Origin: Propionibacteriaceae bacterium P6A17
GTDB taxonomy: Bacteria > Actinomycetota > Actinomycetes > Propionibacteriales > Propionibacteriaceae
DNA: 64,000 nt
Direction: 5' to 3'
Assembly: GCA_000619965.1 (NCBI GenBank)
Contig: JHVD01000012.1
Coordinates: 1-64,000 of the forward strand
In this document: positions 3,597 to 11,408 of the stretch, piece by piece
Numbering within the stretch: the first letter of the stretch is position 1
How the letters are laid out: each line of letters begins with the position of its first letter
Made by a program: the position numbers and the translations under genes
The notes under the pieces: generated by a model
Told to the model about the DNA's origin: nothing
What the model saw: only the letters and a program-made list of their open reading frames with translations
Database searches by the model: none

Positions 3597-4969
3597 GGCC
3601 GGTGGTGACCGCCGACGAGATGCGCGCGGCCGAGCAGCGATGGTTCGACGCCCACCCTGGCGGCAACCTGATGGCCCGCGCCGCGCGGGCCGTCGCCGAA
3701 GCCGCCGGCGAGTTCGACGGCGACGTGCTCGTCGTCGTCGGGCCGGGCAACAACGGCGGCGACGGGCTGTTCGCGGCCGCCCAGTTGTCCGCGACGAGGA
3801 CCCTGAGGCTCTGGCTGCCGCTCGGGGCGGCGCACGAGGCCGGGCTGGCGGCGGCTATCGAGGCCGGATGCCAACTCGTGGACGCCGCCGGCGCGATGCA
3901 GGCGCTGGGGATGTCGGGGCTGGTGATCGACGCGTTCGTCGGGATCGGTTCGCGCCCGGGACTGCCGCCGGAGGTGGCGGCGCTGGCCACTGCCTGCCGC
4001 TCCCACGGGGTGCCGGTGCTCGCCGTCGACCACCCGAGCGGCCTCGCCACGGACTCGTGCGTCGCGCACCCATCCTTCACCGCGACGACGACCCTCACCT
4101 TCGCCGCGGTGAAGCCCTGCCACGTGCTGCAGCCCGCCGCGTCGCGCTGCGGGGACGTGCGGGTGGTCGACATCGGCGTCGACGTCGGCGAGCCGGGCAT
4201 TCGCGTGGCGCAGCCGCGCGACCTCGCACGCTGGTATCCCTTCCCCAAACCGACGAGCCACAAGTACAGCCGCGGGGTGCTGCTGCTCGACACCGGGTCG
4301 CTACGATACCCAGGTGCCGCGCTGCTCGGCTGCGCGGGCGCATTGTACACCGGGGTGGGGATGGTGCGCTACTGCGGCGACGCGCCCGCCTCGCTCGTCC
4401 TGGGGCGCCACCCCAGCGTCGTCGTCGGGCAGGGCCGCGCGCAGGCCGCGGTGATCGGTTCGGGCTGGGGGGAAGCCGACGACGTGCGCGTCGCCGCGGT
4501 GGCGGCGCTGGGCCTGCCCGTCGTCGCGGACGCGGAGGCGCTGCACACCTTGCCGCAGCGCAGTCTCGACGGGTGGCTGCTGACACCGCACGCGGGAGAA
4601 CTCGCCAGGCTGCTCGGGGTGGAACGCTCCAGCGTCGAGGCCGATCCGCTCGGGCACGTGCGCGGTGCGGCCGCGCGCACGGGAGCGACCGTGCTGCTGA
4701 AGGGGGCGACGCAGTACGTCGCGGAACCGACGGGGCGGGTGACCATCCCCGTCGAAGGTCCGGCGTGGACGGCGCAGGCCGGATCGGGCGACGTGCTGGC
4801 GGGCATGTGCGGCGCGTTGATGGCCGGGGGGCTGCCCGCCTGGCAGGCGGCCACGCTCGCGGCGAGCCTCCAGGCGCTGGCCGCGACCACGCACCCGGGG
4901 CCCCACCCGCCCGACGAGCTGGCCCGCTGGATCCCCGAGACGCTGGTGCACCTCGACGACGTCGGCTGA
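3593..4969 (+). CDS. nnr: Bifunctional NAD(P)H-hydrate epimerase / dehydratase
   Basis: Repairs damaged NAD(P)HX: the N-terminal domain epimerises R- and S-hydrates and the C-terminal domain dehydrates the S-form using ADP or ATP. The 458-residue protein has a YjeF_N domain (about 1-200, with [13 protein letters not shown] and DHPSGL) and a ribokinase-like NnrD domain (about 220-458, with [13 protein letters not shown] and the GSGDVLAGM motif near the C-terminus). The ATG at 3593 overlaps the acpS stop by the ATGA pattern and is preferred to an in-frame GTG at 3584. The acpS-nnr pairing is common in actinobacteria. It is often followed by alr, which is not here; ridA lies beyond, on the other strand. 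Confidence 0.93.
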
Positions 4970-5417: not shown

Positions 5418-6593
5418 CTACGCCAACAGCTCCTGCCCGATCCAGCCGCCCTCGACCATCCCGCGCGGGATGGCGAACACGGCCGAGCCGACGGCGGTCG
5501 TCCACTGGTTGAGCGCGTCGGCGTCGTCGAGCGCGCGCTGCACGGGGATGAACTGCTTGGCGATGTTGGCCTGGAAAGCGTTGAAGATGAGGCCCGTGCC
5601 GGTGTGGTCCGAGTAGTTGATGCCGCGACGGTGCATCCGCCGGCCGTTGTTCTCGCTGGGATGCGCGAGCCGGGCGTGGGCGTCGAGGGGGATCGCTGGC
5701 TGGCCGTCGGCGGGGTTGACCGCCATCAGGTCGAGCGGTGTGGACTCGGTGCCGCCCGACAGCGGAGCGCCCGAGTCGAGACGACGGCCCATCACCTTCT
5801 CCATCTGGTGGCGGGTGAGCTTGTCCCACTCCGGCAGGTCCATCGCGATGCGGCGCACCACGAGCTGCGTGCCGCCGGCGAGCCAGCCGTCGGTGGACCA
5901 GAGGGTGCCGTCGAAGCTCGCGCCCGTCGCGTTTGCGGTGCCGTCGATCTGTCCGAAGAGGTTGCGGCCGGTCACGGGCTGGCCCTGGGCGTCGGTGCCG
6001 CGCCAGAAGCCCTGCTGCGCCCAGCGCACGCTCGCCCAAGGGGCGACGTCGCGGGTGAGGCAACGCTTGGCGTAGGTGACGGAGGTGAAGTCGTCGGCGC
6101 TGATCCACAGCAGCAGGTCCCCGCCGGTCCACTCGGGCTGGAGCGCGTCGTGTTGCATGGGAGGGATCTCCTGCATGCCCGCCGGCAACTCGCTGCGCAG
6201 GCCGTCGACGTCGAAGAAGCCCGGGCCGAACCCGACGAGCACCGACATCGACACGTTGGGCTGCGCCATGTCGGGCAGCGTGTCGCCGGCGGCGGGTCGG
6301 CCCTGCATGAGGGCCGCGATGTCGGTGGAGCACACGCGCATCATGCGCCCGAGGGCGGCGCGGTCCACGTCGTCGTGCAGCGTGAACGCGATCAGCTCGT
6401 GCGCTGCGGCCACCGGCGTGTCGACGCCCGCCTGGTGCGCTCCGAACGGCGAGAGGGACTGGCCCGAGGACTGGGGGCGAGCAGCCTCCGACGACGTCCC
6501 TCGGCCGAGTGCGGCCATGTGTGCCGCGAGGCCGAGCCCCGCGACGGCTCCGGCACCGGCTCCCAGTACGTTCCTGCGCGACACGCTCGACAT
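5418..6593 (-). CDS. Tat-exported Dyp-type heme peroxidase (DtpA/EfeB family)
   Basis: Predicted extracytoplasmic heme b peroxidase. The N-terminus SVSRRNVLGAGAGAVAGLG is a twin-arginine signal followed by a hydrophobic stretch. The mature part carries the Dyp signature GQIDGTANATG (GxxDG with the distal Asp), the heme-pocket block LVVRRIAMDLPEWDKL, and the C-terminal RRGINYSDHTGTGLIFNAFQANIAKQF segment. The length of 391 aa fits the family. The ATG at 6593 is chosen because it lies exactly 7 nt from a TATCAT -10; the ATG at 6602 overlaps that -10. It is divergent from a copper chaperone gene, with a shared palindrome in the 35-nt gap. In Streptomyces a Dyp peroxidase (DtpA) works with a PCu(A)C-type chaperone in copper trafficking to a radical oxidase, so a copper role is inferred. 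Confidence 0.9.
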   Translation of the reverse strand: MSSVSRRNVLGAGAGAVAGLGLAAHMAALGRGTSSEAARPQSSGQSLSPFGAHQAGVDTPVAAAHELIAFTLHDDVDRAALGRMMRVCSTDIAALMQGRPAAGDTLPDMAQPNVSMSVLVGFGPGFFDVDGLRSELPAGMQEIPPMQHDALQPEWTGGDLLLWISADDFTSVTYAKRCLTRDVAPWASVRWAQQGFWRGTDAQGQPVTGRNLFGQIDGTANATGASFDGTLWSTDGWLAGGTQLVVRRIAMDLPEWDKLTRHQMEKVMGRRLDSGAPLSGGTESTPLDLMAVNPADGQPAIPLDAHARLAHPSENNGRRMHRRGINYSDHTGTGLIFNAFQANIAKQFIPVQRALDDADALNQWTTAVGSAVFAIPRGMVEGGWIGQELLA

Positions 6594-6600
6594 GACGAGC

Positions 6601-6606
6601 ATGATA
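6601..6606 (-). promoter_or_regulatory. -10 element of the Dyp peroxidase gene
   Basis: TATCAT on the minus strand ends 7 nt before the ATG at 6593. Its TAT is part of the left arm of the operator palindrome. Confidence 0.5.
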
Positions 6607-6619
6607 CCGGAGGGGTATC
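6603..6619. promoter_or_regulatory. CsoR-like copper operator overlapping two divergent -10 elements
   Basis: GATACC-GGAGG-GGTATC is a perfect 6-5-6 palindrome between the Dyp peroxidase and PCu(A)C chaperone genes. CsoR-family copper sensors bind G-tract palindromes with ATACC...GGTAT ends, and both neighbours are copper-linked. The two -10 hexamers (TATCAT on minus, TATCCT on plus) each use one arm, so a bound repressor would block both promoters. Confidence 0.6.
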
Positions 6620-6621
6620 CT
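6616..6621 (+). promoter_or_regulatory. -10 element of the copper chaperone gene
   Basis: TATCCT ends 7 nt before the ATG at 6629, predicting a leaderless mRNA. An ATGACG at 6592-6597 could be a -35 with an 18-nt spacer. Confidence 0.5.
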
Positions 6622-6628
6622 GCGTCGC

Positions 6629-7147
6629 ATGAAGGCTCTCGTACCCATCGCCGTGTTCGCCCTCGCCCTCACTGGCTGCGCCCAGGCCGAGACTCCCGGA
6701 GTGCTCGCAGGGGAGGCCTGGACTCGCACCACCACCGGCACCCAGATGCCCGAGATGACTGCCGTGTTCGTCAGCCTCTCCAACCCGAGCTCGAAGCTCA
6801 TCAACCTCGTGGAGGCCGACTGCGGCGACGTCGCCGCCAAGACCGAGCTGCACGAGATGGTGGAGAAGGACGGGCAGATGGTCATGCAACAGACCGACGC
6901 CATCCCCGTCCCGGCGGAGGGGCATCAGCACCTCGCGCCCGGCGGCCCGCACATCATGCTCATGGGGCTGACGAAGGAGCTCCCCGTCGGCGGTGAGGAG
7001 GTCAAGTGCCACCTCAAGTTCGACAACGGTCAGGAGATGGACATCACCGCTCCGATCAAGGAGTTCACCGAGGAGCAGGAGTCCTACCACACGCACGAGG
7101 AGATGGACTACGGCTCCGAGTCGCCGATGCCGAAGGACAACGGCTGA
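6629..7147 (+). CDS. PCu(A)C-type copper chaperone lipoprotein
   Basis: Extracytoplasmic copper(I) chaperone of the DUF461/PCu(A)C family, 172 aa. The signal sequence ends in a lipobox LTGC (Cys17), so the protein is membrane-anchored by lipid. The metal-binding pattern H-x10-M-x21-H-x-M is matched exactly by His75, Met86, His108 and Met110, with Met77 next to the first His. Cys65 and Cys127 could form a disulfide. The last 25 residues (with HTHEEMD and a terminal Met) are rich in His, Met and acidic residues and could bind extra copper. The gene is divergent from the Dyp peroxidase and shares its CsoR-like operator. It probably supplies copper to a cuproenzyme outside the membrane; no such enzyme is in the window. 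Confidence 0.9.
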   Translation: MKALVPIAVFALALTGCAQAETPGVLAGEAWTRTTTGTQMPEMTAVFVSLSNPSSKLINLVEADCGDVAAKTELHEMVEKDGQMVMQQTDAIPVPAEGHQHLAPGGPHIMLMGLTKELPVGGEEVKCHLKFDNGQEMDITAPIKEFTEEQESYHTHEEMDYGSESPMPKDNG

Positions 7148-8462: not shown

Positions 8463-10478
8463 ATGGCACGCGGTCCCAAGTCCCATCACGCAGACGGTTC
8501 CCCCAAGAAGCGCTGGTCCCCGGAGCAGCGCGCTGCCCGCGGTCACGCCCCGCGTCGACGCGGCGGCGCCAAGCCCGACGACGTCCCTGCGCGCAACCGT
8601 GCCGAGCGGCGCAGCGAGCAGTTCGCCGACCGCAGGGGTGACGACCGCGCCCGCGGAAGTTGGGAGCGACGGGACCAGTCCCGACGGTTCGGCGTCGTCG
8701 ACGAGCGCCGCTCGTCGCGCACCGGTGGGCAGGGGCGTGGCGGACGTGACGATGACCGTCGCGGGTCCGAGCGTCGCTTCGAGGGCCGGGGGGATCGCCG
8801 CTTCGAGGGCCGGGGGGAGCGTCGGTTCGAGGATCGGGGGGAGCGTCGGTTCGAGGATCGGGGGGAGCGTCGCTTCGAGGGCCGGGGGGATCGCCGCGAC
8901 TTCTCGCGCAACTCGCCTCGCGACTCTCGCGATGAGCGCCGTGACGACCGTCGTCCGCGCTTTGACCGTGACGACCGCCGTTCGCGCTTCGACCGCGAGG
9001 ACCGTCGTCCGCGCTTCGACCGTGACGACCGCCGCCCGCGCTTTGACCGTGACGACCGTCGTCCGCGCTTTGACCGTGACGACCGTCGCCCGCGCTTCGA
9101 GCGCGACGACCACCGGGCAGAGAGCGCCGAGCCGGATCAGATGTCCTGGGAGGCCACGACGATCGAGGGCGAGCAAGGCGTGGTGAATGGCTTCACCGAG
9201 CTCGGCGTCGCCGAGCCGATGGTGGGCGTGCTCGCCGCGCAGGGCATCACCCAGCCGTTCGCCATCCAGGAGGCGACGATCCGCGACGCGATCGCCGGCC
9301 GCGACGTTCTGGGCCGAGCCCGCACGGGCTCCGGCAAAACCCTCGCCTTCGGGCTCTCACTGCTCACGCGGCTGGCCGAGGGCTCGGGCCGCGGGCCGCG
9401 GGCGGTGATCCTCAGCCCCACGCGCGAGCTGGCGCTGCAGATCGCGGACAACCTCTCCCCGCTCGCGGCGGCGATGGGGCTGTCGATGACGCTGGTTGCC
9501 GGCGGGATGAGCTACAACCCACAGATCCGCGCCTTCGAGCGCGGCGTGGACGTCGTCGTCGCGACGCCGGGCCGGCTCGTCGATCTGATGGAGCAGGGCG
9601 CCGCCGATCTCTCCAATGTGGAGATCACCGTCCTCGACGAGGCCGACCACATGGCTGAGATGGGCTTCACCGACGAGGTGACCGCCATCCTCGACGCGAC
9701 GCCCGAGCAGGGGCAGCGCCTCCTGTTCTCCGCCACGCTCGACGAGGCCGTCGACCGCATCGTGCGCAGCTACCTCCACGACCCCGTCGTGCACGAGGTC
9801 GACTCCGATCGTGGCTCGGTCCTCACCATGACGCACCTCGCGCTCCAGACCCGTCCGCACGAGAAGGTCCTCGTCACGGCGGAGATCGCGTCGCGTGCGG
9901 GCCGAACGGTCATCTTCGCGCGCACCCAGAAGGGCTCCGACCGCATCGCCGAGCAGTTGCGTCAGGTCGGCGTCATGACCGGGGCGCTCCACGGCGGCCT
10001 CACCCAGGGGGCCCGGGCCCGCATCCTCGCGGCCTTCAAGTCCGGCGAGGTGCCGGTGCTCGTCGCCACCGACGTGGCAGCCCGCGGTATCCACGTCGAC
10101 GACGTGAGCCTCGTCCTCCAGGTGGATCCGCCGCGCGATTCCAAGGACTACCTCCACCGCGCCGGCCGTACCGCGCGCGCGGGCAGCGACGGCACGGTCG
10201 CGACGATCGTCCTTCCGCACCAGCGCAAGATGATGCGTCGCATCCTCGGCCAGGCGGGCGTCAAGGCCACCGACCTCGAGACGCGCCCAGGCGCCGACGA
10301 CCTCGCCGAGCTCACCGGGGCCCGCCCCGTCTCGGGTGAGCCCATCGCCGAGACCGACTACCTCGAGCTCATCAAGCCGAAGCCGCAGTCGCGCGGGCAG
10401 GGCGCCCGCAAGGGTGGCCGCGGCAAGGGCGGGTTCAACAGGCGACGCAATCAGGGCTGGCGTCGCCGCGAGGACTAG
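8463..10478 (+). CDS. DEAD-box RNA helicase with repetitive Arg-rich N-terminal tail
   Basis: ATP-dependent RNA helicase of the DeaD/RhlE/CsdA group, 671 aa. The core shows the Q motif (near 243-273, FTELGV...QPFAIQEATI), motif I ARTGSGKT, Ia PTRELA, II DEAD, III SAT (LFSATL) and VI HRAGRTARAG in order. The first 225 residues are disordered and highly charged. They contain five octapeptides RRFE(G/D)RG(D/E) at 104-143 and six nonapeptides (P/S)RF(D/E)R(D/E)D(R/H)R at 165-218. The C-terminal tail is RG/RK-rich with GGRGKGGFNRRRN. Such tails usually bind RNA and can drive condensate formation. Its stop codon TAG is the first half of a -10 element for the next gene. The ATG at 8463 follows a weak TTAGGT; no Shine-Dalgarno is clear. 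Confidence 0.92.
   Translation: MARGPKSHHADGSPKKRWSPEQRAARGHAPRRRGGAKPDDVPARNRAERRSEQFADRRGDDRARGSWERRDQSRRFGVVDERRSSRTGGQGRGGRDDDRRGSERRFEGRGDRRFEGRGERRFEDRGERRFEDRGERRFEGRGDRRDFSRNSPRDSRDERRDDRRPRFDRDDRRSRFDREDRRPRFDRDDRRPRFDRDDRRPRFDRDDRRPRFERDDHRAESAEPDQMSWEATTIEGEQGVVNGFTELGVAEPMVGVLAAQGITQPFAIQEATIRDAIAGRDVLGRARTGSGKTLAFGLSLLTRLAEGSGRGPRAVILSPTRELALQIADNLSPLAAAMGLSMTLVAGGMSYNPQIRAFERGVDVVVATPGRLVDLMEQGAADLSNVEITVLDEADHMAEMGFTDEVTAILDATPEQGQRLLFSATLDEAVDRIVRSYLHDPVVHEVDSDRGSVLTMTHLALQTRPHEKVLVTAEIASRAGRTVIFARTQKGSDRIAEQLRQVGVMTGALHGGLTQGARARILAAFKSGEVPVLVATDVAARGIHVDDVSLVLQVDPPRDSKDYLHRAGRTARAGSDGTVATIVLPHQRKMMRRILGQAGVKATDLETRPGADDLAELTGARPVSGEPIAETDYLELIKPKPQSRGQGARKGGRGKGGFNRRRNQGWRRRED
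8772..8891 (+). repeat. In-frame minisatellite, five 24-nt units
   Basis: Tandem repeats encode RRFE(G/D)RG(D/E) five times in the helicase N-terminal tail (residues 104-143). Units keep the reading frame, so copy-number change would alter tail length without breaking the gene. Confidence 0.85.
8955..9116 (+). repeat. In-frame minisatellite, six 27-nt units
   Basis: Tandem repeats encode PRFDRDDRR-type nonapeptides six times (residues 165-218). The unit length (27 nt) differs from the upstream array (24 nt), so the two arrays arose separately. Confidence 0.85.
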
Positions 10479-10490: not shown

Positions 10491-11408
10491 ATGAGCATCG
10501 AGATCCGTTTTGCCAAGGCGTCCGACGCGCCCGCACTCCACGACGTGATCCGGGCCGCCTTCGGGGCGCGCCCGGCGGTGGACCCGCCCGCGGATGCGCT
10601 GCAGGACACCGTCGACGACGTCCGCGCCGCCATCGAGTCGGGGGCAGGCGTGATCGTCGAGCGCGACGGCATCCCGGTCGCCGGGCTCCTCGTCGAATTC
10701 GACGGCCCCGCGGCCACCCTGCGTCGGGTCGCCGTCGTCCCCGAGGCTGCCGGCGCCGGCGTCGGCGTGCAGATGGTCGCGACCACGCTGCTCGCGCTGG
10801 CCGACATGGACCTGCGCCGCGTGGAGGTGGTGGCGCGCAGCGAGTTTCCGAAGAACATCCAATGGTGGGAGCGGGCCGGCTTCCGGCGCGCCCGCGCAGT
10901 GGCCAACGGGTGGATCCTCGAGCGCAGCCTCCCGGTGGCGGTGCGCGTCCCCGACGCGGACGCCATGCGCACGCTCGGTCGCCGGCTGGCGGGGGTATTG
11001 CGCGCCGGCGACGTGATCGTCGCGAGCGGGCCACTCGGCGCGGGCAAGACCACCCTCACCCAGGGCATCGGCGAGGGGCTCGACGTCGAGGGACCCGTGA
11101 TCTCGCCCACCTTCGTCCTGTCCCGCGTGCACCGGTCGCGCCGCGGGGGGCCGTCGCTCGTGCACGTGGACGCCTACCGCCTCGGCTCGCCCGACGAGCT
11201 GCAGGACATCGACCTGCAGGAGTCGCTGGCCGACGCGGTGACGCTCGTCGAGTGGGGCAGGGGGGTCGCCGAGTGGCTGAGCGACGAGCCCCTCGAGATC
11301 GACATCCAGCGCAGCGACGACCCCGCCGACGACGAACGCGTCGTCCACCTGTTCGGCATCGGCACCCGCTGGGACGGTGTGCTGGAGAGCTTCCGGGAGC
11401 ACGCATGA
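10491..11408 (+). CDS. tsaE: GNAT acetyltransferase fused to TsaE ATPase
   Basis: Two-domain protein of 305 aa. Residues 1-148 form a GNAT N-acetyltransferase (beta strand LRRVAVVPEAAGAGVG for acetyl-CoA, then NIQWWERAGFRRARAV). Residues 150-305 are TsaE, the ATPase of the t6A tRNA-modification complex, with a P-loop GPLGAGKTT at 180-188, ISPTF and the HVDAYRLGSPDEL motif. TsaE stand-alone proteins are about 150-170 aa, so this is a true fusion. The next genes are tsaB, rimI and tsaD, all overlapping or nearly so, forming one operon for threonylcarbamoyl-adenosine synthesis at tRNA position 37. The acetyl acceptor of the GNAT domain is unknown. tsaC/sua5 is not in the window. Confidence 0.92.
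   Translation: MSIEIRFAKASDAPALHDVIRAAFGARPAVDPPADALQDTVDDVRAAIESGAGVIVERDGIPVAGLLVEFDGPAATLRRVAVVPEAAGAGVGVQMVATTLLALADMDLRRVEVVARSEFPKNIQWWERAGFRRARAVANGWILERSLPVAVRVPDADAMRTLGRRLAGVLRAGDVIVASGPLGAGKTTLTQGIGEGLDVEGPVISPTFVLSRVHRSRRGGPSLVHVDAYRLGSPDELQDIDLQESLADAVTLVEWGRGVAEWLSDEPLEIDIQRSDDPADDERVVHLFGIGTRWDGVLESFREHA

Follow-up and report, generated by a model that had tools for sequence, protein, structure and literature searches.

A divergent DyP peroxidase–PCu(A)C chaperone gene pair with overlapping, predicted leaderless promoters and a palindrome that is probably not a CsoR operator

A DyP peroxidase gene and a PCu(A)C-type copper chaperone (PCuAC) gene stand back to back in the window, the whole 64,000-nucleotide stretch of DNA analysed here, with only 35 nt (6594-6628) between them. 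Within this gap lies a perfect palindrome, and the locus raises the question of whether the palindrome is an operator common to both genes or a consequence of how two promoters are packed together. The first-pass annotation had read it as a CsoR operator that could switch off both genes, had proposed a leaderless promoter on either side, and had suggested a minimal copper-delivery module akin to that of Streptomyces. Its promoters, its copper motif and its tie to Streptomyces stood up, and a CsoR is indeed encoded in the genome, but the shared CsoR operator and the minimal module did not. The genome groups with Tessaracoccus/Arachnia (Propionibacteriaceae). Among 19 named loci of the chaperone family, 18 belong to Tessaracoccus, uncultured Arachnia or MAGs labelled Propionibacteriaceae, Propionibacterium or Actinomycetes, and one to an alphaproteobacterium.

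The minus-strand gene (5418..6593) carries the N- and C-terminal Dyp_perox domains (Pfam PF04261/PF20628), and its start is placed as in the orthologues of genomes G001 and G009. The product begins with a twin-arginine-like MSSVSRRNVLG (by eye), scores above the cut-off of the superfamily profile TIGR01413, and is probably an A-type DyP peroxidase. Identity with the EfeB deferrochelatase/peroxidase was considered and rejected, the equivalog profile TIGR01412 giving 291.9 bits against a cut-off of 428. The plus-strand gene (6629..7147) encodes a PCuAC domain (PF04314, E 5.8e-28) behind an N-terminus that resembles that of a lipoprotein (by eye). As previously annotated, its H75-x10-M86-x21-H108-x-M110 fits the H-x10-M-x21-H-x-M copper motif exactly, and an alignment of the window protein with 13 congeners finds all four ligands invariant (14/14 sequences). 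Domain match and ligand motif both identify the product as a PCu(A)C copper chaperone. Further along the window, 8463-10478 encodes a helicase of the DEAD-box type (by eye), whose N-terminal part is a long run of nearly identical RRPRFDRDD repeats. The frame after it, at 10491-11408, resembles an acetyltransferase joined to a TsaE-like domain (by eye), and TsaB-, RimI- and TsaD-like frames come next.

The distribution of the two genes was compared across 39 related genomes of the genus, with counts uncorrected for shared ancestry. PCuAC is present in 22 of them, the window's included, and a Sco match at E<1e-20 occurs in exactly the same 22. At E 0.001 Sco is matched in 27 of the 39 genomes, and in 24 above the Pfam cut-off; the five additional matches are weak (E 5.7e-5 or worse, with G006 and G062 above the Pfam cut-off) and are probably thioredoxin-like relatives. 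A DyP orthologue of at least 55% identity accompanies PCuAC in 21 of the 22 genomes, the exception being G015, which has no match and whose PCuAC contig ends inside the gene. None of the 17 genomes without PCuAC has such an orthologue, any DyP match there being at most 40% identical. Sco, PCuAC and DyP thus occur together, which supports the proposed tie to the ECuC/DtpA system of Streptomyces, and the copper link of the pair holds. The pair is not a minimal copper module, because Sco goes with it across the genus although it is encoded elsewhere, unlinked and on a different contig. By eye, Sco here stands behind trpA; in L137 (around 3950-4663) it comes straight after frames resembling trpC, trpB and trpA, which gives it the look of a trp operon member. 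The two genes are divergent in 21/21 loci within the genus. Outside it they share one strand, with the chaperone leading, in 21/21 loci with both genes (11 from the order, 10 from other genera of the family); two further family loci, L122 and L124, have no DyP match within the locus and were left out of this count. The window genome encodes a CuA-type COX2 with CxxxCxxxHxxM, and a search for PF07250 and PF09118, domains of the GlxA radical oxidase type, gave no match, as was also the case in the control genomes. Among the papers listed by our literature search (12 of 13 found), none mentions Tessaracoccus together with the copper terms, a result confined to that search.

Both genes have a putative vegetative -10 hexamer directly upstream. 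On the minus strand, TATCAT (6606-6601) is followed by the 7 nt GCTCGTC and then by the DyP ATG at 6593. On the plus strand, TATCCT (6616-6621) is followed by the 7 nt GCGTCGC and then by the PCuAC ATG at 6629. The 7-nt distance is exact in both directions, as the earlier reading had it. We compared these promoters in the 21 genomes of the genus, the window's included, that have the pair in the fetched loci. G015 was excluded since its PCuAC contig stops within the gene; locus L114 (uncultured Arachnia, divergent, no box by eye) lies outside the 21-genome counts, and L113 is apparently the same locus as L132 (G061). TANNNT stands 6-8 nt ahead of PCuAC in 21/21 genomes with hand-read starts that were picked with the -10 in view, and 6-8 nt ahead of DyP in 21/21 by eye, where the choice of start likewise used the -10. 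With blind starts, chosen by a script from the protein alignment alone, the hexamer falls at 6-8 nt in 15/21 genomes for PCuAC and in 14/20 for DyP (G001 has no blind start), and at most 3 genomes share any one offset between 0 and 44 outside 6-8 nt. The blind choice took other start codons in several genomes, including ATG 6602 for the DyP gene of the window. Recurring as they do throughout the genus, both -10 positions are more than chance. DyP translation probably begins at ATG 6593 rather than at the longer ATG 6602, because a -10 recurs at 6-8 nt, because TAnnnT has been mapped as the -10 box of Propionibacterium acnes, a species in which leaderless mRNAs are common (PMC3848588), and because ATG 6602 overlaps the -10. 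Judged from sequence comparison, the view that both genes are read from leaderless promoters, divergent and overlapping, is well supported.

The promoters lie close together in this lineage. The gap measures 35 nt in the window and 36 and 38 nt in G001 and G009, the two nearest relatives, compared with 45 to 126 nt (blind estimates) in the other 18 genomes. The predicted transcript starts are 36 bp apart and the -10 boxes 9 nt apart; therefore, given the size of RNA polymerase, two polymerases would be unable to bind the locus together. The shared -10 class of bidirectional promoters was considered and set aside: starts in that class are about 10, 18 or 23 bp apart, against 36 bp here if both mRNAs are leaderless.

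The palindrome GATACCGGAGGGGTATC spans 6603-6619 between the two promoters, favours neither strand and reads GATACC-GGAGG-GGTATC, just as first described. It contains a TAC/GTA inverted repeat, TACCGGAGGGGTA, at 6605-6617 (TAC-X7-GTA). We assessed it from its sequence, from pattern counts, by simulation and by comparison with congeners. Four of the six base pairs of each arm (6603-6606 and 6616-6619) fall inside the -10 hexamers, which mirror each other because two -10 boxes face each other; only CC/GG is extra. The exact pattern RATACCN5GGTATY occurs at one place in the 2.73-Mb genome and, with at most one mismatch, at four places in all, compared with none for the reversed control. Allowing up to three mismatches, the 17-mer matches the window once, against an expectation of 0.06. 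The looser RTACCN4-8GGTAY is not enriched, with 13 places genome-wide and 14 in the control. We then simulated random 35-nt stretches at a G+C of 0.68, scoring perfect inverted repeats with arms of at least 6 and a loop of at most 9. Such a repeat arises in 7.3% of the stretches, in 5.9% with two -10 hexamers from congeners set at the window's positions, in 3.2% if it must also be centred between these placed hexamers, and in 8.4% with the two actual window hexamers fixed. No TAC-Xn-GTA box is found in G001, G009, G027 or G035, the four genomes that make up the rest of the window's clade, and G001 and G009 keep compact promoters without the palindrome. The evidence that the palindrome goes beyond chance is mixed. 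Between its start codons the nearest relative, G001 (L036), has a different perfect inverted repeat, GGCGGGT-N6-ACCCGCC, with arms of 7 around the PCuAC -10, which is unrelated to the window palindrome.

What a CsoR-family site looks like can be read from the regulators' own loci. The window genome encodes a true CsoR with C/H/C ligands (G000:C3:148662-148910), which has its own operator and a copZ-like frame downstream (by eye), and a CstR-like protein beside thioredoxin, which has an X8 box. Across the genus we typed 51 CsoR-family loci by best match (tblastn). The 37 CsoR-type loci comprise 29 with an X9 box, one with X8 and seven with none, five of these seven being of a third subtype; X9 thus accounts for 29 of the 30 csoR loci having a box. 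The 14 CstR-type loci divide into nine with an X8 box and five with none. A looser rule gave 39 loci, of which six CsoR-like ones were left out of the CstR count; the remaining 33 CstR-type loci yield X8 in 21, a weak X7 in one (G016), X9 in none and nothing in 11. Among these X8 matches, that of G061 probably falls inside a coding region, and four are found 190-257 nt upstream. The third subtype, NC(I/L/T)EILT..SAV...NHLxHC, is seen in L083, L085, L086, L088, L089 and L158, with no TAC-Xn-GTA box nearby. Spacing, X9 versus X8, distinguishes the boxes of CsoR from those of CstR inside a single genus, making the regulator assignable by sequence.

The window genome has 13 loose-pattern places. 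Two-tract X9 boxes are found at csoR and also upstream of a P-type ATPase whose N-terminus is a cupredoxin domain (L080, about 1501-1517; G000:C24:3133), which is a probable second CsoR target. Two-tract X8 boxes are found at cstR/thioredoxin and upstream of a short open frame that starts MCARVTC, where the box is perfect (ATACCCCCGGGGGTAT; L068 1501-1516, G000:C1:184416); this frame is possibly a CstR target. The remaining places have one good tract at most. Additional copies of the palindrome, to which the first-pass annotation had looked for support, did not materialise: the exact pattern is single, and the csoR and cupredoxin-ATPase boxes are X9 instead. The box in the window, with X7 spacing and one tract (GGAGGGG on one side and only CC on the other), has neither the 9-bp spacing nor the two tracts of a type 2 CsoR site.

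Boxes of the X8 kind do occur before PCuAC in another clade. They are found in 8/21 promoters (G003, G018, G021, G022, G029, G030, G031 and G061; loci L025, L017, L018, L019, L021, L024, L029 and L132), beginning 38 nt before the PCuAC start in six genomes and 36 and 34 nt in two, with the sequence TACCCC-NN-GGGGTA or a close variant (the left arm is TGCC in G022). All eight genomes belong to one clade of ten that is not the window's (FastTree support 0.92); G011 and G016 of this clade are without the box. More G/C tracts lie directly upstream of the X8 box in L018, L019, L025 and L029, which suggests a tandem site. One CstR-like subtype is present in 8/8 X8 genomes against 2/13 others (Fisher p 2e-4, or 7e-4 leaving out two genomes without a CstR-type match), a comparison uncorrected for ancestry in which one clade explains much. 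A cautious reading of these sequences is that PCuAC in the ten-genome Tessaracoccus/Arachnia clade may be under a CsoR-family repressor. That this repressor is a CstR-type persulfide sensor rather than CsoR is a tentative proposal, to which we give somewhat less than even chances; if true, the sensing of reactive sulfur would be tied to the delivery of copper.

Could the window palindrome nevertheless be an operator? As a compact CsoR operator, at which one bound CsoR would silence both genes until copper rises, it would suit a genome that encodes a true C/H/C CsoR, and its TAC/GTA dyad, unique there as an exact palindrome, is centred between the promoters. The CsoR/RcnR family also includes type 1 single-tract sites with 6-9 bp between AT-rich repeats (PMC3902906), and GGAGGGG resembles such a tract. 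Against this, the spacing is X7 where both csoR and the cupredoxin-ATPase of the same genome have X9, the CsoR sites of S. lividans are type 2, TAC-X9-GTA, in the account of PMC3902906, and in another family member one nucleotide more or less between the repeats made binding about 10-15 fold weaker (PMC10318464). Together with the single tract, the absence of the box from the rest of the clade and a simulated chance frequency of 3-8%, these points make a CsoR operator common to both genes unlikely. The opposite reading, a by-product of the -10 boxes and nothing more, has to accommodate an exact pattern that is unique in the genome and the 3.2% of the most specific simulation, and these leave room for a lineage-specific operator. 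Binding by the CstR-like persulfide sensor, or by some other unrelated species-specific regulator, is a reading for which the thioredoxin-linked protein with its X8 box, the X8 boxes on the PCuAC promoter of eight congeners, X8 sites with the window's TACCGG left arm adjoining CstR-type genes in G018 and G021, and the weak X7 match beside a CstR-type gene in G016 (relaxed rule) all speak; yet the window spacing was matched by only one CstR-type locus of the 33, with X8 in 21, the window box sits on the -10 instead of at -38, and relatives in the same clade are without a box. We regard this reading as quite improbable. Overall the palindrome is probably not an operator, as far as its sequence allows a judgement.

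A further candidate gives the palindrome a role in translation. The plus-strand GGAGG (6609-6613) matches the anti-Shine-Dalgarno sequence, and it could serve PCuAC if the transcript started further upstream. Its distance of 15 nt from ATG 6629 is too great, however, and GGAGG is absent upstream in G001 and G009, whereas the -10 at 6-8 nt recurs across the genus; this candidate was rejected as very remote.

The interpretation we favour, and consider likely as a whole, is that of leaderless overlapping promoters serving a copper pair, with the palindrome mostly a by-product of the -10 boxes and not a CsoR operator. At this locus two genes for handling copper outside the cytoplasm would start back to back, one for a DyP exported by the Tat route and one for a PCu(A)C chaperone. 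Either start codon would have a vegetative -10 box 7 nt ahead of it, and both mRNAs are probably leaderless. In this species, as in G001 and G009, the gap has shrunk to 35-38 nt, which would leave the two polymerase sites overlapping almost completely, with one polymerase bound at a time. Two G-C pairs apart, the palindrome would chiefly be the two -10 boxes mirroring each other. DyP and PCuAC, with the unlinked Sco, probably load copper into an external cuproenzyme; the likeliest client may be the CuA site of this genome's own cytochrome oxidase, and data from S. lividans question whether PCuAC-like proteins serve CuA (PMC3603459). The robust, testable feature of the locus is the overlap of predicted leaderless promoters feeding a copper-delivery pair. 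The palindrome appears to be a tempting artefact of the kind that two facing -10 boxes tend to create, and the joint occurrence of Sco, PCuAC and DyP speaks for a copper route of three proteins outside Streptomyces.

The locus shares features with four known systems and departs from each. The type 2 CsoR operator of S. lividans (PMC3902906) has a similar TAC...GTA dyad around a G-rich centre; the window dyad has X7 and not X9, one G tract and not two, and is embedded in two -10 boxes. Bacterial bidirectional promoters, whose starts are most commonly 18 bp and also commonly 10 or 23 bp apart in the description of PMC12825309, likewise place two divergent starts on one short pseudo-symmetric stretch, with a polymerase facing one way excluding the other, whereas here the -10 boxes are separate and the predicted starts are 36 bp apart. 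In the leaderless genes of Propionibacterium acnes the start codon, ATG or GTG, is the transcript start (PMC3848588). TAnnnT lies just upstream of the start codon in both cases, and the present locus differs in having two such genes back to back within 35 nt, with starts that are predicted. The Streptomyces sco operon has the order sco-ecuC-SLI_4212-dtpA (PMC4736821, PMC3603459). It resembles the present system in bringing together a PCuAC-type chaperone, a Tat-type DyP and Sco, but here DyP and PCuAC are divergent and Sco lies elsewhere, so that the three do not form one operon.
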